NCBI GenBank assembly: GCA_019638115.1
Contig: JAHBUK010000001.1
Location: 1 to 64,000, forward strand
Length of the DNA: 64,000 nt
Reading direction: 5' to 3'
Origin: Flavobacteriales bacterium
GTDB taxonomy: Bacteria; Bacteroidota; Bacteroidia; Flavobacteriales_F; PHOS-HE28
Below, one piece after another: positions 51,995-57,423 of this stretch. Below the pieces are notes generated by a model. It did no database searches and was not told the DNA's origin. It was given only the letters and a program-made list of their open reading frames with translations. The position numbers were made by a program, and so were the translations under genes. The stretch's first letter is position 1. Each line of letters begins with the position of its first letter.

Positions 51995-52200
51995 TAGCGC
52001 GTGAGGGGACGAAGCGGCAGCCTGCTGAGGGTCGGCCGTGCAGCCACGTGCAGCGAGGAGGCACCGACGCAGGAGGTGACCCCGGAGCCTGCCTACCGGC
52101 AAAGGCAGGCGCCGTGGATGCTGGCCGGACCAAAGCAGCTATAGCGTAGCACCCGGCCCGCGTGTTGGCCTTCGTGCGCAAGGAAGGGACACGCCCTTCC
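51995..52200. repeat. Diverged copy of the nrdJ 3' flank
   Basis: This gap matches 54201-54400, the sequence downstream of nrdJ (gcgtgag, cggcagcc, gcagccacg, agcagcgaggaggc). Each copy can pair gcagccacg with cgtgg(c/a)tgc, so a long hairpin is kept. Together with the truncated nrdJ copy it forms one direct repeat of about 490 bp. Confidence 0.8.
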
Positions 52201-52490
52201 CTACCCGCACTTCGTCCCCCCGCAGCTCCGGCACTTCAAGCACCCTTCCTCATAGTAAAGCCCTTCCGCATCGCCGCACTCCGGACACTTGCGGCCCAGG
52301 GCCTGCGTGCCATCGGGGATGTAGCGCGAGAGGGCGCGCACCACGCCGTTCTTCCAGGTGTTGAGGGTGCTGTCGTAGAGGTTGAGGTTGGCCACCACAT
52401 CCACCACCTGCGGCACGGGCATGCCCTGGCGCAGCATGCCGCTGATGAGGATGGCGTAGTTCCAGAACTCCTTGTTGAAGGTGCGGCTGA
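52201..52490 (-). pseudogene. Truncated duplicate of the 3' end of nrdJ
   Basis: The minus strand codes LSRTFNKEFWNYAILISG through CLKCRSCGGTKCG, the last about 96 residues of class II ribonucleotide reductase, then a stop. It differs from the intact gene at 54401-54690 by scattered substitutions (about one base in ten by eye) that mostly keep protein sequence. Homology stops abruptly at 52490. The upstream codons to 52554 are unrelated, so no functional protein is expected. Confidence 0.9.
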
Positions 52491-52577
52491 GGCAAAACAC
52501 CCAATCGCAATGCCCACAACTCATCCATAATTGTCGCCTTCCATGAAACTCCATACACTTGCTACAACACTCTCACC

Positions 52578-52769
52578 ATGAAGAAAAAGACAACCATTCT
52601 TTGGCTGATGAAGCTTGCGCTGTTAATCCCGTTGTTGATTGGGTTCGGCCTTAGTAAAGAAGCTGCAAGTCAAGGTAACTCCTCGATGGGTGTTCTAGCT
52701 GTGGGATGCATCTTGGGTATGTCAGCCGTATTGTGGTACAAACCCAAGGGTACACAAGAATCAAAGTGA
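52578..52769 (+). CDS. Small membrane protein in the low-G+C islet
   Basis: The 63-residue protein (MKKKTTILWLMKLAL) has two hydrophobic helices joined by a short loop (KEAASQGNSSMG). Its codon usage is clearly A+T-richer than the surroundings. The end overlaps the J-domain gene start by 4 bp (GTGA). No family is recognised. Confidence 0.6.
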   Translation: MKKKTTILWLMKLALLIPLLIGFGLSKEAASQGNSSMGVLAVGCILGMSAVLWYKPKGTQESK

Positions 52770-53230
52770 GGCTCAAAGACTACTATAATATTTTGGAGAT
52801 CGCCCCATCAGCATCCGCGGATGAGGTTCAACGTTCCTATAAACGACTTGCGAAACTTTGGCACCCTGACAGAAATCACGACGCTCAGGCCACGCAAAAA
52901 ATGCAAGAGATAAATGAGGCATATCTCATTCTTCGAGACCCAATTAAACGCAACAGATATGACTCTCTCTTTGTTAGAACACAATCTTCGCACGCCCCCT
53001 TTGAAGGCTCTAAGCATCAAACTTCTTACAAAACCGAGAGTACGGACAAGGCTAGTGAAAGCCAGATGGAAGATTGGATCACCGATGCTAGAAGAGAGGC
53101 GAAGGAGCTTATAAACTATACGATATCAGAAGGCAAAAGCATGATATTTGACATGCTATCTCAAGCTTTCGGCGGTATTGTCGTAGCCTCAATTATTTTC
53201 TTCATCATGTTCAGCATGAGTAACTGCTAA
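52766..53230 (+). CDS. Membrane-anchored J-domain protein
   Basis: The GTG at 52766 gives 154 residues. An N-terminal J-domain (about 3-68) has YYNILEIAPSASADEV, the HPD motif in WHPDRNHD and RDPIKRNRYD. A polar linker and a C-terminal TM helix (GGIVVASIIFFIMFSM) follow. It would recruit DnaK/Hsp70 to a membrane. Codon use and base composition differ from the chromosome, so it was probably acquired with the islet. Confidence 0.8.
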   Translation: MRLKDYYNILEIAPSASADEVQRSYKRLAKLWHPDRNHDAQATQKMQEINEAYLILRDPIKRNRYDSLFVRTQSSHAPFEGSKHQTSYKTESTDKASESQMEDWITDARREAKELINYTISEGKSMIFDMLSQAFGGIVVASIIFFIMFSMSNC

Positions 53231-53883
53231 CCATTCCTTTCATTTAACTTTTCTATGAAGGAACGTGTCTCACGTTTACCGTACGCTATGGTTTCTTCTC
53301 CTTCGTAAATCAGATGATGGTCAATCACAACCATTCGGTTGCGAATCGAACAAATGGTTTGAATTATTAATCCATATTTATCCGTACCTGATTCATCTTT
53401 CACATGATATATTTGCACCATCGTTATGGCATTCGTGGCAGGTTTGAATTTTTCCACTCCCATCGGCTGACCAATGGAAAGATTGGTTTTCATGTATTGC
53501 TTCACATTATTTTTCACCTGAGCCCATTCCTTGAAGGTAATCCCACGCGTCAGTTGGTCTTGGTAGTTGGTCAAGTCATTCGACGTGAAATGATGAGAAT
53601 TCATCGCATCAATTTTCCAGACTTTGAAATAGTTGTTCAACAAAATACTGGAAAAGTCCTTCGATATTTGTTCATTGGATATATAGTATGCCAAGGCCGT
53701 GTTGCCCCGCATCGTTTGAAATGAATTACACTTTGAACCACACAATGTCTTATTGCTTAACTCTGGAAAACAAATTGATACATCCCCGATTGAACTGCGC
53801 TGTACGCAACCTCCTGTTTGCGAATCAGCTGGACAAAATAAAGCTACAAGTAAAGCAACCAGCAACATTGACAAGTGGTTCAT
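53227..53883 (-). CDS. Secreted protein of unknown function in the islet
   Basis: The 218-residue protein has a signal peptide (MNHLSMLLVALLVALFCPADS) and several cysteines (TGGCVQ, ICFPEL, LCGSKCNSF). The rest is an alpha/beta mixture with VQIYHVKDESGTDKYGLI. I recognise no family. It is A+T-rich and converges with the J-domain gene with a 4-bp overlap. Confidence 0.7.
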   Translation of the reverse strand: MNHLSMLLVALLVALFCPADSQTGGCVQRSSIGDVSICFPELSNKTLCGSKCNSFQTMRGNTALAYYISNEQISKDFSSILLNNYFKVWKIDAMNSHHFTSNDLTNYQDQLTRGITFKEWAQVKNNVKQYMKTNLSIGQPMGVEKFKPATNAITMVQIYHVKDESGTDKYGLIIQTICSIRNRMVVIDHHLIYEGEETIAYGKRETRSFIEKLNERNG

Positions 53884-53902
53884 TTCAATTGTAGTTATCT
53901 GT

Positions 53903-54139
53903 TCATGATAGTAAGCGGCACTCCAGTTGCAACTCCAGTCCGACAGCTTGGAAGGTCCTTCCCATAGGGGCGAAATGGACTTTGGGATAACCCGGCTGGG
54001 AACGTTGTGCTTCTAAAGTACCATTTGAAGTCCGCTTTACAATCCACACGAATGGATCACCGGGGACCGTCAAAGCCCACCAAGAGAAATTCTCCCAGTC
54101 AATGGCATCTATCTTTTGTGCTAGTTCAGAGTAAAGCAT
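53903..54139 (-). CDS. Small hypothetical protein in the islet
   Basis: The most likely start is the ATG at 54139 (MLYSELAQKIDAIDW), giving 78 residues. Upstream codons belong to the duplicated G+C-rich flank. The sequence (SWWALTVPGDPFVWIVKR) has no family match I know. The true start could be further up at an unusual codon. Confidence 0.5.
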   Translation of the reverse strand: MLYSELAQKIDAIDWENFSWWALTVPGDPFVWIVKRTSNGTLEAQRSQPGYPKVHFAPMGRTFQAVGLELQLECRLLS

Positions 54140-54200
54140 GATCTTGTATTGTTCAACAAAGTAACTCAATATCACTGCATCCTCAAAGCACTGATGAACT

Positions 54201-54400
54201 ACGCGTGAGCGGGCGTAGCGGCAGCCCGGCGCAGGAAGGGCCTTGCAGCCACGAGCAGCGAGGAGGCGCGAGGAACGAGCGACCCCGCAGCGCCGTGGCT
54301 GCTGGTCCTGACAAGTCCGGCTACAGCGAAGCACGCGACCCGTGCGTTGGCCTAGTGTGCTGGGAAAGGGACACGTCCTACCTACGGCAGGCAGGCCCCC
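54201..54400. repeat. nrdJ 3' flank, second copy of the direct repeat
   Basis: This is the partner of 51995-52200. The segment gcagccacgagcagc can pair with gctgctgg / cgtggctgc, forming a stable hairpin 20-90 bp in size. It may serve as the nrdJ terminator region or as a structured RNA. No reading frame is supported. Confidence 0.75.
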
Positions 54401-56998
54401 CTACCCACACTTCGTCCCCCCACAGCTCCTGCACTTCAAACACCCTTCCTCGTAGTACAGCCCGTCCTTATCGCCACACTCCTGGCACTTGCGGCCTTTG
54501 GCTTCCGTGCCATCGGGGATGTAGCGGGAAAGGGTGCGCACAACGCCGTTCTTCCAGGTGTTGAGGGTGTCGTCGTAGAGGTTGAGGTTGGCCACCACGT
54601 CCACCACCTGCGGCAGGGGCATGCCCTGGCGCAGCATGCCGCTGATGAGGATGGCGTAGTTCCAGAACTCCTTGTTGAACGTACGGCTGAGGCCCTGCAC
54701 GGTGACGCGGTAGCCTTCGTCGTCGGCGTACTCCAGGTCGTAGCGGTTGGTGCCGCGGGCTTCATCACGGCGCTTCACCACCCAGCCTTTGGTGACCCAG
54801 CGTGGCAGCTCGAAACCGCCGTTGGCCTTGCCGGTGAAGATCTCGTAGGGCTTGCCGTCCAGCATGCCCACCACGGCCAGCCAGGGCTCGGTCTCGTTGT
54901 TGAAGCGGAGGACGTCGGCTTCCAGGGTTTCGGGGCGGGGGGTATGGTGGGGCATGTCGGCGCCCTGGGTCGACGCTGCCCCACCGTTGTCGGTAGCAAC
55001 CAGAACACCGCTTCGGCTGCCATCGCGGTACACGGTGATCCCCTTCAGCCCCTGGTGCCAGGCCTCCAGGTAGATGCCACCCACCTCGTCCACCGTGGCG
55101 GTGCTGGGCAGGTTGATGGTGCTGCTGATGCTGTGCGTGGTGTACTTCTGCACCACGGCCTGCATGCGGATGCGCTTGTGCCAGTCAATGTCGTTGGCGG
55201 TGGCACCGTGGTAGGGGCTTTCGGCGGGATCGCTCTTGCCCGTGACCTGCATCCAGTCCAGCACACGCGGGTGGTGTACCGTGAACTCCTCCCACTGATC
55301 GCCGAGGTCGTCGGTGAAGGTCACCTTCGCATTGGGGTCGCCGGGCACCACCTTGCGGCGCCGCGTGTAGCCCAGCATGTACACCGGCTCGATGCCGCTG
55401 CTGGTGCGCGTGAGCAGGCTTAGTGTGCCGGTGGGCGCCACGGTGCTGAGGCTGATGTTACGGCGTCCGTGGCGCATCATGCGGTCGTGTACCTCGGGCA
55501 ACTCCTTCTCCAGCATGGCGGTGAACTCGCTCGTACGCTCCACGGCGGGTGCGAAGCCCTCGAAGGCGCCGCGCTCGATGGCCATGTCGATGCTGCTGTC
55601 GAACTCCGCGCGACACTTGGTGCGCAGGATGTCCTCGGCGGCCTCGATCGCTTCATCGCTGTCGTACTTCAGGTTGAGCGCGGCGAGGGCATCGGCCAGG
55701 CCGGTGAAGCCCAGGCCCGTGCGGCGGCCCTTCCTGCCGGTGTCGCGCAGCAGCTCCCAGGTCTCGCGCTCGGTGCGCTTCAGCTCGTCGGGCTCGGGAT
55801 CGGCGTTCACCTTGGCCAGGATGCGGTCCACGGCCTCCAGCTCCAGGTCCACCAGGTCGTCCATCAGGCGCTGCGCCTCGTAGGTGACGGCTGCGAAACG
55901 CTCGTGGTCGAACCAAGCGCGGTGCGTGAAGGGCTCGTTGACGAAGCTGTGCAGATTGATGGCGATCAGGCGGCAGCTGTCCCCGCCCTGCATGGCGATC
56001 TCGCTACAGGGGTTGGTGCTCTCGTTGCGGAAGCCGGGGTACACGCTGCTCGTGCTGTACAGGTGCTGGCGGTCCCAGAAGATCACGCCCGGCTCGGCGG
56101 TGGCGTGCGCGCAGGAGATCAGCGTGTTCCACAGTTCGCGCGCCCTCACCACCTTGGTCACAGTGGGCTTCTCGGAATCGATCGGCCAGCGAAGCGTGAA
56201 GTCCGCATCGGCCTCCACGGCCTTGAGGAACTCGTCGCTCACACGCACGCTCACGTTGGCGCCGGTCACCTTGCTGAGGTCCTGCTTGATGGTGATGAAG
56301 TGCTCCACATCGGGATGCGCGATGTCCATGGTGAGCATCAGCGCGCCGCGACGGCCCTTCTGTGCCACCTCGCGGGTGGTGTTGCTGAAGCGCTCCATGA
56401 AGCTGACGGCGCCGGTGCTGGTGCGCGCGGCATTGCTCACGGGCGCACCCGAGGGACGCAGCGTGCTGAGGTCGAAGCCCACGCCGCAGCGCCGCTTGAA
56501 GAGTTGGGCCAACTGCTGGTCGTTGTGGAAGATGCCGCCGTAGCTGTCCATCGGCGAGGGGATCACCACGCAATTGCTCAGCGAGGCCAGGCGATAGGGA
56601 TCACCGAGGGAGGCCATCACACTGCCCTGCGGCACCACATCGCGGAATCCGTCGAAGAGTTTGAAGATGCGCTCCTCGTCCAAGCGTTCGCGTGCCTGTC
56701 CGTAGCTGGAGAGCAGCGCACGCTTCTCGGCAGGCACCGCTGTGTACTTCGCTTCGATGCGCGCGAACTCGCGGGCCATACGGCGGTGCATGTCGGCCGG
56801 ACCGCTTTCCACCAAGTGGCCATCCCCATCGCGCAAGGCGTACTTGTTCATCCACGTGGTGGCCGCGAGGTCATCGCCCTTGAAGTAGTCCAGCGCGTTC
56901 TTCAGCACCTCCTCCGTACTGAAGGTCTTCTTCCTCGTGTCGGTCTTCTTCTTCATTTCGGTGTGGACGGAGATGCTGGCGGTGGCGATCGTGCTCAT
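54401..56998 (-). CDS. nrdJ: Adenosylcobalamin-dependent ribonucleotide reductase (class II)
   Basis: The start at 56998 (MSTIATASISVHTEM) gives 865 residues. The enzyme reduces ribonucleotides using a B12-derived radical. Redox Cys143 lies in LSNCVVIPSP, and radical-site Cys331 with Glu333 in NPCSEIAM. GTLSLLTRTSSGIEP matches the conserved barrel. The C-terminus carries a zinc-ribbon (CQECG, CLKCRSCGGTKCG) that delivers electrons. The B12 uptake operon at 39186-44578 fits this cofactor need. Confidence 0.95.
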   Translation of the reverse strand: MSTIATASISVHTEMKKKTDTRKKTFSTEEVLKNALDYFKGDDLAATTWMNKYALRDGDGHLVESGPADMHRRMAREFARIEAKYTAVPAEKRALLSSYGQARERLDEERIFKLFDGFRDVVPQGSVMASLGDPYRLASLSNCVVIPSPMDSYGGIFHNDQQLAQLFKRRCGVGFDLSTLRPSGAPVSNAARTSTGAVSFMERFSNTTREVAQKGRRGALMLTMDIAHPDVEHFITIKQDLSKVTGANVSVRVSDEFLKAVEADADFTLRWPIDSEKPTVTKVVRARELWNTLISCAHATAEPGVIFWDRQHLYSTSSVYPGFRNESTNPCSEIAMQGGDSCRLIAINLHSFVNEPFTHRAWFDHERFAAVTYEAQRLMDDLVDLELEAVDRILAKVNADPEPDELKRTERETWELLRDTGRKGRRTGLGFTGLADALAALNLKYDSDEAIEAAEDILRTKCRAEFDSSIDMAIERGAFEGFAPAVERTSEFTAMLEKELPEVHDRMMRHGRRNISLSTVAPTGTLSLLTRTSSGIEPVYMLGYTRRRKVVPGDPNAKVTFTDDLGDQWEEFTVHHPRVLDWMQVTGKSDPAESPYHGATANDIDWHKRIRMQAVVQKYTTHSISSTINLPSTATVDEVGGIYLEAWHQGLKGITVYRDGSRSGVLVATDNGGAASTQGADMPHHTPRPETLEADVLRFNNETEPWLAVVGMLDGKPYEIFTGKANGGFELPRWVTKGWVVKRRDEARGTNRYDLEYADDEGYRVTVQGLSRTFNKEFWNYAILISGMLRQGMPLPQVVDVVANLNLYDDTLNTWKNGVVRTLSRYIPDGTEAKGRKCQECGDKDGLYYEEGCLKCRSCGGTKCG

Positions 56999-57423
56999 GA
57001 TGTGATGCGGATGTAAAGTTCGCGGTCGGCGAAAGTGGACCGTGAAGCAACGGCGATCGGTGACGATCATCATCCGGAAATGACCACGGGATCCAACACC
57101 GTTTTCAACCGGGTGAACAAGTGCCGATCGGTGCGGGGATCGGGAGCATCCCGGCTGGAAAGTGCCGTGGGGCTTGACCTTCCGAGATCATGAGCATACC
57201 CATGGCGGCTTTGCGGAGGGGATCAACAGGGTGTTGATGCGGAAGGAAGTTTCCACGGGGGATCGTGGGATCGATCGCATGCATTCCAATGAGTTTGGCA
57301 CAGGCTCCTCGATGTAAAGGCACCCAACAACAAAGGCGCCCTTGCGGACGCCCTTGCTGCCTTTCACCATTCCGCCATACCATGCCCTCGGCGATCCGAA
57401 GGATGGTGCAGAACGCACATTGA
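56999..57423. other. Intergenic gap between nrdJ and the FAS1 gene
   Basis: No gene is supported in this 425-bp region. It must contain the nrdJ promoter. Around 57328-57365 an imperfect stem (aaaggcgcccttgcggacgccctt) could end the FAS1 transcript. No riboswitch-like pattern was seen upstream of nrdJ. Confidence 0.5.

Follow-up and report, generated by a model that had tools for sequence, protein, structure and literature searches.

In the 64,000-nucleotide stretch analysed here (the window; positions 1 to 64,000 of contig JAHBUK010000001.1, assembly GCA_019638115.1, from a Flavobacteriales bacterium of the PHOS-HE28 lineage), the 3′ end of nrdJ, an essential enzyme gene, is present twice, and a low-G+C islet of small genes lies inserted between the complete gene and its detached second tail. 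The arrangement is not singular: in 860 kb of the window's contig, representing 21% of the genome, approximately nine further core-gene ends recur as detached fragments 0.6–2.3 kb away, with duplicated lengths varying between loci and no recognisable integrase. We cautiously favour an explanation by additive, untargeted insertion that proceeds without a site-specific integrase, whereby a fragment composed of a gene end and cargo would have recombined into the tail of the host gene. The source genome (4.06 Mb, 60% G+C) belongs to a genus of uncultured Flavobacteriales known mainly from metagenome assemblies. The nrdJ locus is built from the following features, given in window coordinates.

54401..57073, minus strand: nrdJ, class II (adenosylcobalamin-dependent) ribonucleotide reductase (NCBIfam TIGR02504, 491 bits; Pfam PF02867)
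54401..54693, minus strand: in-gene (proximal) copy of the nrdJ tail, its outer half grouping with the congener G037
54204..54375: dispersed intergenic repeat on the 3′ side of the proximal tail, 11 matches in the own genome
52494..54201: low-G+C islet, 1708 bp, 42.7% G+C
52201..52493, minus strand: detached (distal) copy of the nrdJ tail, with an unbroken reading frame
52000..52193: dispersed intergenic repeat on the 3′ side of the detached tail, with matches in the own genome
51294..51905, minus strand: original downstream neighbour, a 203-amino acid protein with a type IX secretion system (T9SS) sorting tail (TIGR04183)

BLAST self-comparison aligns 51998–52493 with 54202–54693 at 78.9% identity over 517 columns, and the E value of ~1e-126 means that the repeat is not due to chance. 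Its unit consists of the last 293 bp of nrdJ (96 codons plus stop) and ~200 bp of 3′ flank in the same orientation, as the original prediction, made from the sequence letters alone, had recognised. The divergence of about a tenth that was read from it applies to the coding part, which is 90.6% identical (27 of 288 sites differ, 16 of them at third positions; nonsynonymous divergence dN 0.05, synonymous divergence dS 0.30), but not to the flanks, for which the identity is ~69%. The gene itself is intact, an open reading frame of 890 amino acids with its start probably near 56998 and its end, restored, at 54401 of the minus strand; the detached tail continues in frame, with neither stop codon nor frameshift. 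Homology between the two units stops at the outer end of a dispersed intergenic repeat of ~170–200 bp (GCGTGAGCGGGCGTAGCGGCAGCC...), which has internal complementary stretches and occurs in 11 places in the genome, and not at a motif resembling an attachment (att) site. This repeat was considered as the driver of the insertions. Both nrdJ tails have it on their 3′ side, but of the further copies listed for the scanned contig not one coincides with another gene-end duplication, and the repeat is therefore not the general cause.

Four genes are found within the islet.

52578..52769, plus strand: 63-amino acid membrane protein, no family above cut-off
52766..53230, plus strand: J-domain protein with a C-terminal transmembrane segment (Pfam DnaJ, E 7e-22)
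53227..53883, minus strand: 218-amino acid secreted protein, signal peptide identified by eye, no family
53906..54139, minus strand: small 78-amino acid protein read from the ATG at 54139, no family match

The cargo is as first described from the sequence, and so is its A+T-richness, a G+C content as low as the islet's 0.427 being reached in only 0.035% of equally sized segments of the 860 kb. The J-domain gene begins with a GTG overlapping the stop of the preceding reading frame, and its product has only generic J-domain relatives within the genus. For the 218-amino acid secreted protein, no relative was found in 44 congeners, a sample of 395 Bacteroidota, genome contigs, IMG/VR or phages; the 78-amino acid protein is absent from the 43 congeners searched, and the islet DNA gave no match in plasmids. 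The noted lack of an integrase was borne out by searches of Pfam, NCBIfam and PHROGs, which recognised neither an integrase nor a transposase gene above cut-off, and the islet is flanked by the nrdJ tails and the intergenic repeat, not by copies of an insertion sequence. Elsewhere, direct repeats of 78–319 bp occupy the very start of the contig (window 1–903), and a 5-kb tract of 46% G+C (C1:310500–315750, locus L117) is the largest low-G+C tract in the 860 kb.

The islet is an insertion, because the congener G013 displays the empty arrangement and because congeners lack both the orphan cargo and the detached tail. A gap of 108 bp separates nrdJ of G013 from a homologue of the T9SS-tail gene, next to which comes the gene of an MBL-rhodanese protein, and these are the genes found beyond the detached tail here; the insertion was additive, with the neighbour beyond the islet kept. 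The genus sample comprised 45 genomes, 31 of them with a match to the nrdJ tail and nearly all relatives being draft metagenome assemblies. A second nrdJ tail nearby exists only in the present genome (G000), G032 and G043, and conservation of both copies and the cargo in syntenic position, for which we also looked, was not found. The original prediction had suggested seeking islets with different cargo at the nrdJ 3′ end, and the latter two genomes have nrdJ-tail duplications of other contents: in G032, other genes separate nrdJ from a tail copy of 104 bp (94% identical) that is situated 1.6 kb downstream, and G043 has a decayed copy of 90 bp (76%) only 0.3 kb downstream, across a short gap filled with repeats. 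Start points of the tail copies accordingly differ, at −290 here, −104 in G032 and −90 in G043. Tail duplication has in G032 made a gene fusion, a secreted protein being joined in frame to a copy of the nrdJ C-terminal zinc-ribbon (L060 11279–13128). Approximately 63 nrdJ loci from outside the genus revealed no clear tail copy. The T9SS-tail gene 3′ of nrdJ has its own end duplicated in two congeners, G044 (L048 4072–5181, 88 bp), where the copies bracket an apparent inorganic pyrophosphatase gene, and G010 (L044 7774–10952, 32 bp).

The wider class emerged from a scan for local direct repeats, run after nrdJ was seen, with genes called by a simple codon-usage caller and named by eye from the translated sequences. 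Duplicated 3′ ends belong to a uvrD-like helicase gene, pdhB, a TonB-dependent receptor gene, fabD, a VOC gene and ispG (twice), and a duplicated 5′ end to rfbB; weaker cases are atpC (43 bp, 81%) and an aldehyde dehydrogenase gene, the latter at its 5′ end (77%). Across the roughly ten loci, the duplicated coding lengths are 33–293 bp and the copies have diverged by 0–23%. Cargo consists of small genes, mostly toxin–antitoxin-like pairs or secreted proteins, with DUF2442/DUF4160, RelE-like, DUF433/DUF5615 (twice), AAA/DUF4143 and secreted proteins found between the copies. At ispG (C1:830205–834553, loci L142–L143), two cassettes stand in series, one with a DUF433/DUF5615 pair and one with a membrane protein and AAA/DUF4143, each ending in a 33–34 bp copy of the ispG end. 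The in-gene copy is at the gene end in 14 pairs, including the two ispG pairs and three that belong to an array of large proteins, and internal in 2. Restricted to the 12 single-locus pairs, 10 are terminal as compared to 0.84 expected under uniform placement (P ~5e-12, a value that describes position within genes and not the discovery of the class, since the scan followed the nrdJ find). Outer ends of nearly all repeats are close to a stop or start codon. The gene-end position of the events is attributable to selection, since an insertion can persist only if the gene remains whole.

Events are separable even within one gene. The end of pdhB was duplicated in separate events, over 151 bp in G000 and over 77 bp in G004, around different cargo, in G004 a different secreted protein. 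The detached fabD tail exists only in G000, and several congeners have the downstream genes directly after fabD. The 3′ side of fabD also varies among congeners (L236–L264), showing either the next gene at once or homologues of the small gene pair 458382–458929, which in this genome adjoins the far side of the detached fabD tail. Scanning of the cargo genes across cassettes recognised no integrase, and inspection of eleven junctions by eye showed no shared att-like motif. Among other members of the genus (550 kb), four terminal and no internal cases were found, including an intergenic repeat that encloses an apparent PIN toxin–antitoxin pair; in G033 (L063 306–1556), such an apparent pair is placed between two 249-bp intergenic repeats (89%). 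Samples from G037 (400 kb) and from three other Bacteroidota (800 kb) contained only a few gene-end repeats, several being upstream or promoter-like, and these did not amount to a comparable set. An array of large genes in the own genome (C1:425000–445915, loci L123–L124) has several detached 3′ tails of 94–785 bp that resemble Rhs-type orphan ends.

For the nrdJ locus we envisage an incoming DNA fragment made up of the terminal part of an nrdJ allele, the adjoining flank and the cargo, which would have recombined by homology with the resident nrdJ tail. On the cargo side, the fragment ends might have been joined to a circle that integrated by one crossover; alternatively, illegitimate joining could have taken place inside nrdJ, ~290 bp before the stop. 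The product would be an nrdJ with a complete, partly imported end, followed by the cargo, then by the native tail, now displaced, and the former neighbour, and the same process may have been repeated in the genus on many core genes, often with toxin–antitoxin-like pairs and secreted proteins. The step from anatomy to mechanism, comprising the origin of the fragment, the crossover and DNA uptake as the route, is one that we infer. Homologous recombination fits best of the three routes that the original prediction had offered. The variety of genes and lengths, the involvement of both 3′ and 5′ ends, the lack of a common motif by eye and of an integrase together argue against one site-specific element. 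Ligation of linear DNA followed by integration through a single crossover has precedent in E. coli (PMC3240628). The illegitimate alternative would be homology-facilitated illegitimate recombination (HFIR) in an additive form. A ComEC homologue is present, which is common and no proof of competence.

Comparison of the two tails suggests that one of them, the restored in-gene end, was probably imported. Polarised against 28 relatives, the in-gene tail has 15 derived states and the detached tail 7, which is the reverse of decay after duplication in place. Over the outer 144 bp, G037 is the partner of the in-gene tail (support 99/94), with the detached tail placed near G012, G041 and G010; a tree constrained to keep the two tails together is rejected by the approximately unbiased (AU) test (p 0.028). 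Over the inner 144 bp, the two tails are each other's nearest, a grouping made less telling because the inner half is more conserved in general, and the split between the halves is compatible with a crossover inside the tail. The flanks were probably already different before they met, since their divergence of 31% greatly exceeds the ~2.4% of changes proper to the detached tail, unless one flank was changed through exchange with dispersed copies elsewhere. The rpoB/rpoC-region tree gives this genome no single sister and so does not decide which tail is native.

Several observations weigh against import by recombination. Across the whole 288 bp, the clade test is not significant (p 0.22), and the proximal flank is 86% identical to a dispersed copy elsewhere, so that exchange could indeed have altered it. 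The two copies group as sisters both at fabD (96/80) and at pdhB (99/93), and it is the detached one that evolves faster; duplication in place and import from a near relative would fit these loci equally. In 13 pairs pooled, 78 of 137 differences are at third positions, which is more than the one third expected of a free fragment (p 1e-8), but the excess over the ceiling for duplication in place (0.5) is only weak (p 0.06). A donor locus was not found in congeners, other Bacteroidota, genome contigs, IMG/VR, phages or plasmids. Lastly, the reported products of HFIR usually involve deletions, not duplications (PMC3240628).

The sister relationship at fabD and pdhB, with the longer branch on the detached copy, and the variable duplicated lengths are also what insertion with long target duplication would produce, a process known from the work of Kobayashi's group on restriction–modification genes, as cited in PMC3031569 and PMC2654758. 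The resident gene end would be duplicated in place, with tails identical at birth that diverged later. We regard this as a serious if clearly less probable account: at nrdJ it is the functional copy that has more derived states, some of them common to G037, the flanks differ by 31%, and the position of the outer repeat ends near a stop or start codon would be required only through selection. Rather improbable, in our view, is a dedicated trans-acting system of the genus that adds small cassettes at gene ends, each with a copy of the host-gene end as homology arm. If it existed, a cassette could insert behind that gene in any relative; cassettes could be disseminated through allelic recombination and accumulate in series, as at ispG, leaving the host unharmed.

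Phage 21 and e14 integrate site-specifically at icd and restore the gene end. An element of this type directed to the nrdJ 3′ end, and surviving as a remnant or satellite, was part of the original prediction, and it would account for the slightly different restored end, the low-G+C cargo and the two serial ispG insertions with their similar 33–34 bp copies. Of that proposal, the insertion stands by the empty locus of G013 and the imported nrdJ tail is made probable by its outer 144 bp, but the fixed-site integrase element is not upheld and has become unlikely: no integrase is recognised in any cassette, start points vary within one gene (−290, −104 and −90 in nrdJ; −151 and −77 in pdhB), and many unrelated genes are hit, also at 5′ ends, with no junction motif shared by eye. 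Still more doubtful is a tandem duplication of the nrdJ end in place with later, unrelated insertion between the copies; the proximity of the inner tail halves would agree with it, but two independent events would be needed at each of the roughly ten loci, and congeners show no cargo-free tail duplication at nrdJ, fabD or pdhB except the short-gap, repeat-filled case of G043. Two strain variants strung together by the assembler are very improbable despite the allele-like tails and the metagenomic origin of nearly all named relatives in the genus, given the lesions in detached copies (a 2-base deletion with frameshift in fabD, motif changes in rfbB), the recurrence of such copies in separate assemblies and the precise breakpoints inside genes.

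Our study points to recurrent, untargeted gene addition that does not break the old genes. Small selfish modules and orphan genes could thereby enter the chromosome independently of an integrase, the trace of their entry being the detached gene ends. These constitute a simple, searchable sequence signature for other genomes. If the process is general in the genus, the number of detached tails would serve as a measure of one route by which genes are gained on a small scale, and the finding of toxin–antitoxin pairs directly behind core genes would be partly explained.

There exist relations to established systems of gene acquisition. Integrase-mediated islands at the 3′ ends of protein genes, and cis-mobilizable elements (CIMEs), likewise restore the gene end and leave the displaced end on the far side; here, in contrast, no integrase is recognised and the point of recombination is not constant. 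The orphan 3′ ends of type VI secretion system (T6SS) effectors and Rhs genes are similar in that a new module displaces the old 3′ end, of which a detached remnant stays (PMC5361080). In those systems, a variant effector end together with its immunity gene forms the module, whereas the hosts here are unrelated core genes and the cargo has no evident tie to the host gene. HFIR, proposed for the displaced effector ends (PMC5361080), and the single crossover of ligated linear DNA share with the route envisaged here one homologous arm and another end joined without homology, and single crossover of a circle yields a direct repeat as observed here (PMC3240628); HFIR, unlike the events described, usually replaces recipient DNA with a deletion, and here the recipient sequence is duplicated. 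Insertion with long target duplication (Nobusato et al. 2000), as far as the papers citing it portray it (PMC3031569, PMC2654758), similarly places small gene sets between long, variable direct target repeats with no transposase. By the same portrayal, it differs in cargo, which here comprises toxin–antitoxin-like pairs, secreted proteins, orphans and a J-domain protein and no restriction–modification genes, and in the repeats, which here are located at gene ends, have diverged by 0–23% and, at nrdJ, look allelic. The anatomy described for it is the same, and the two may represent one process seen from different sides.

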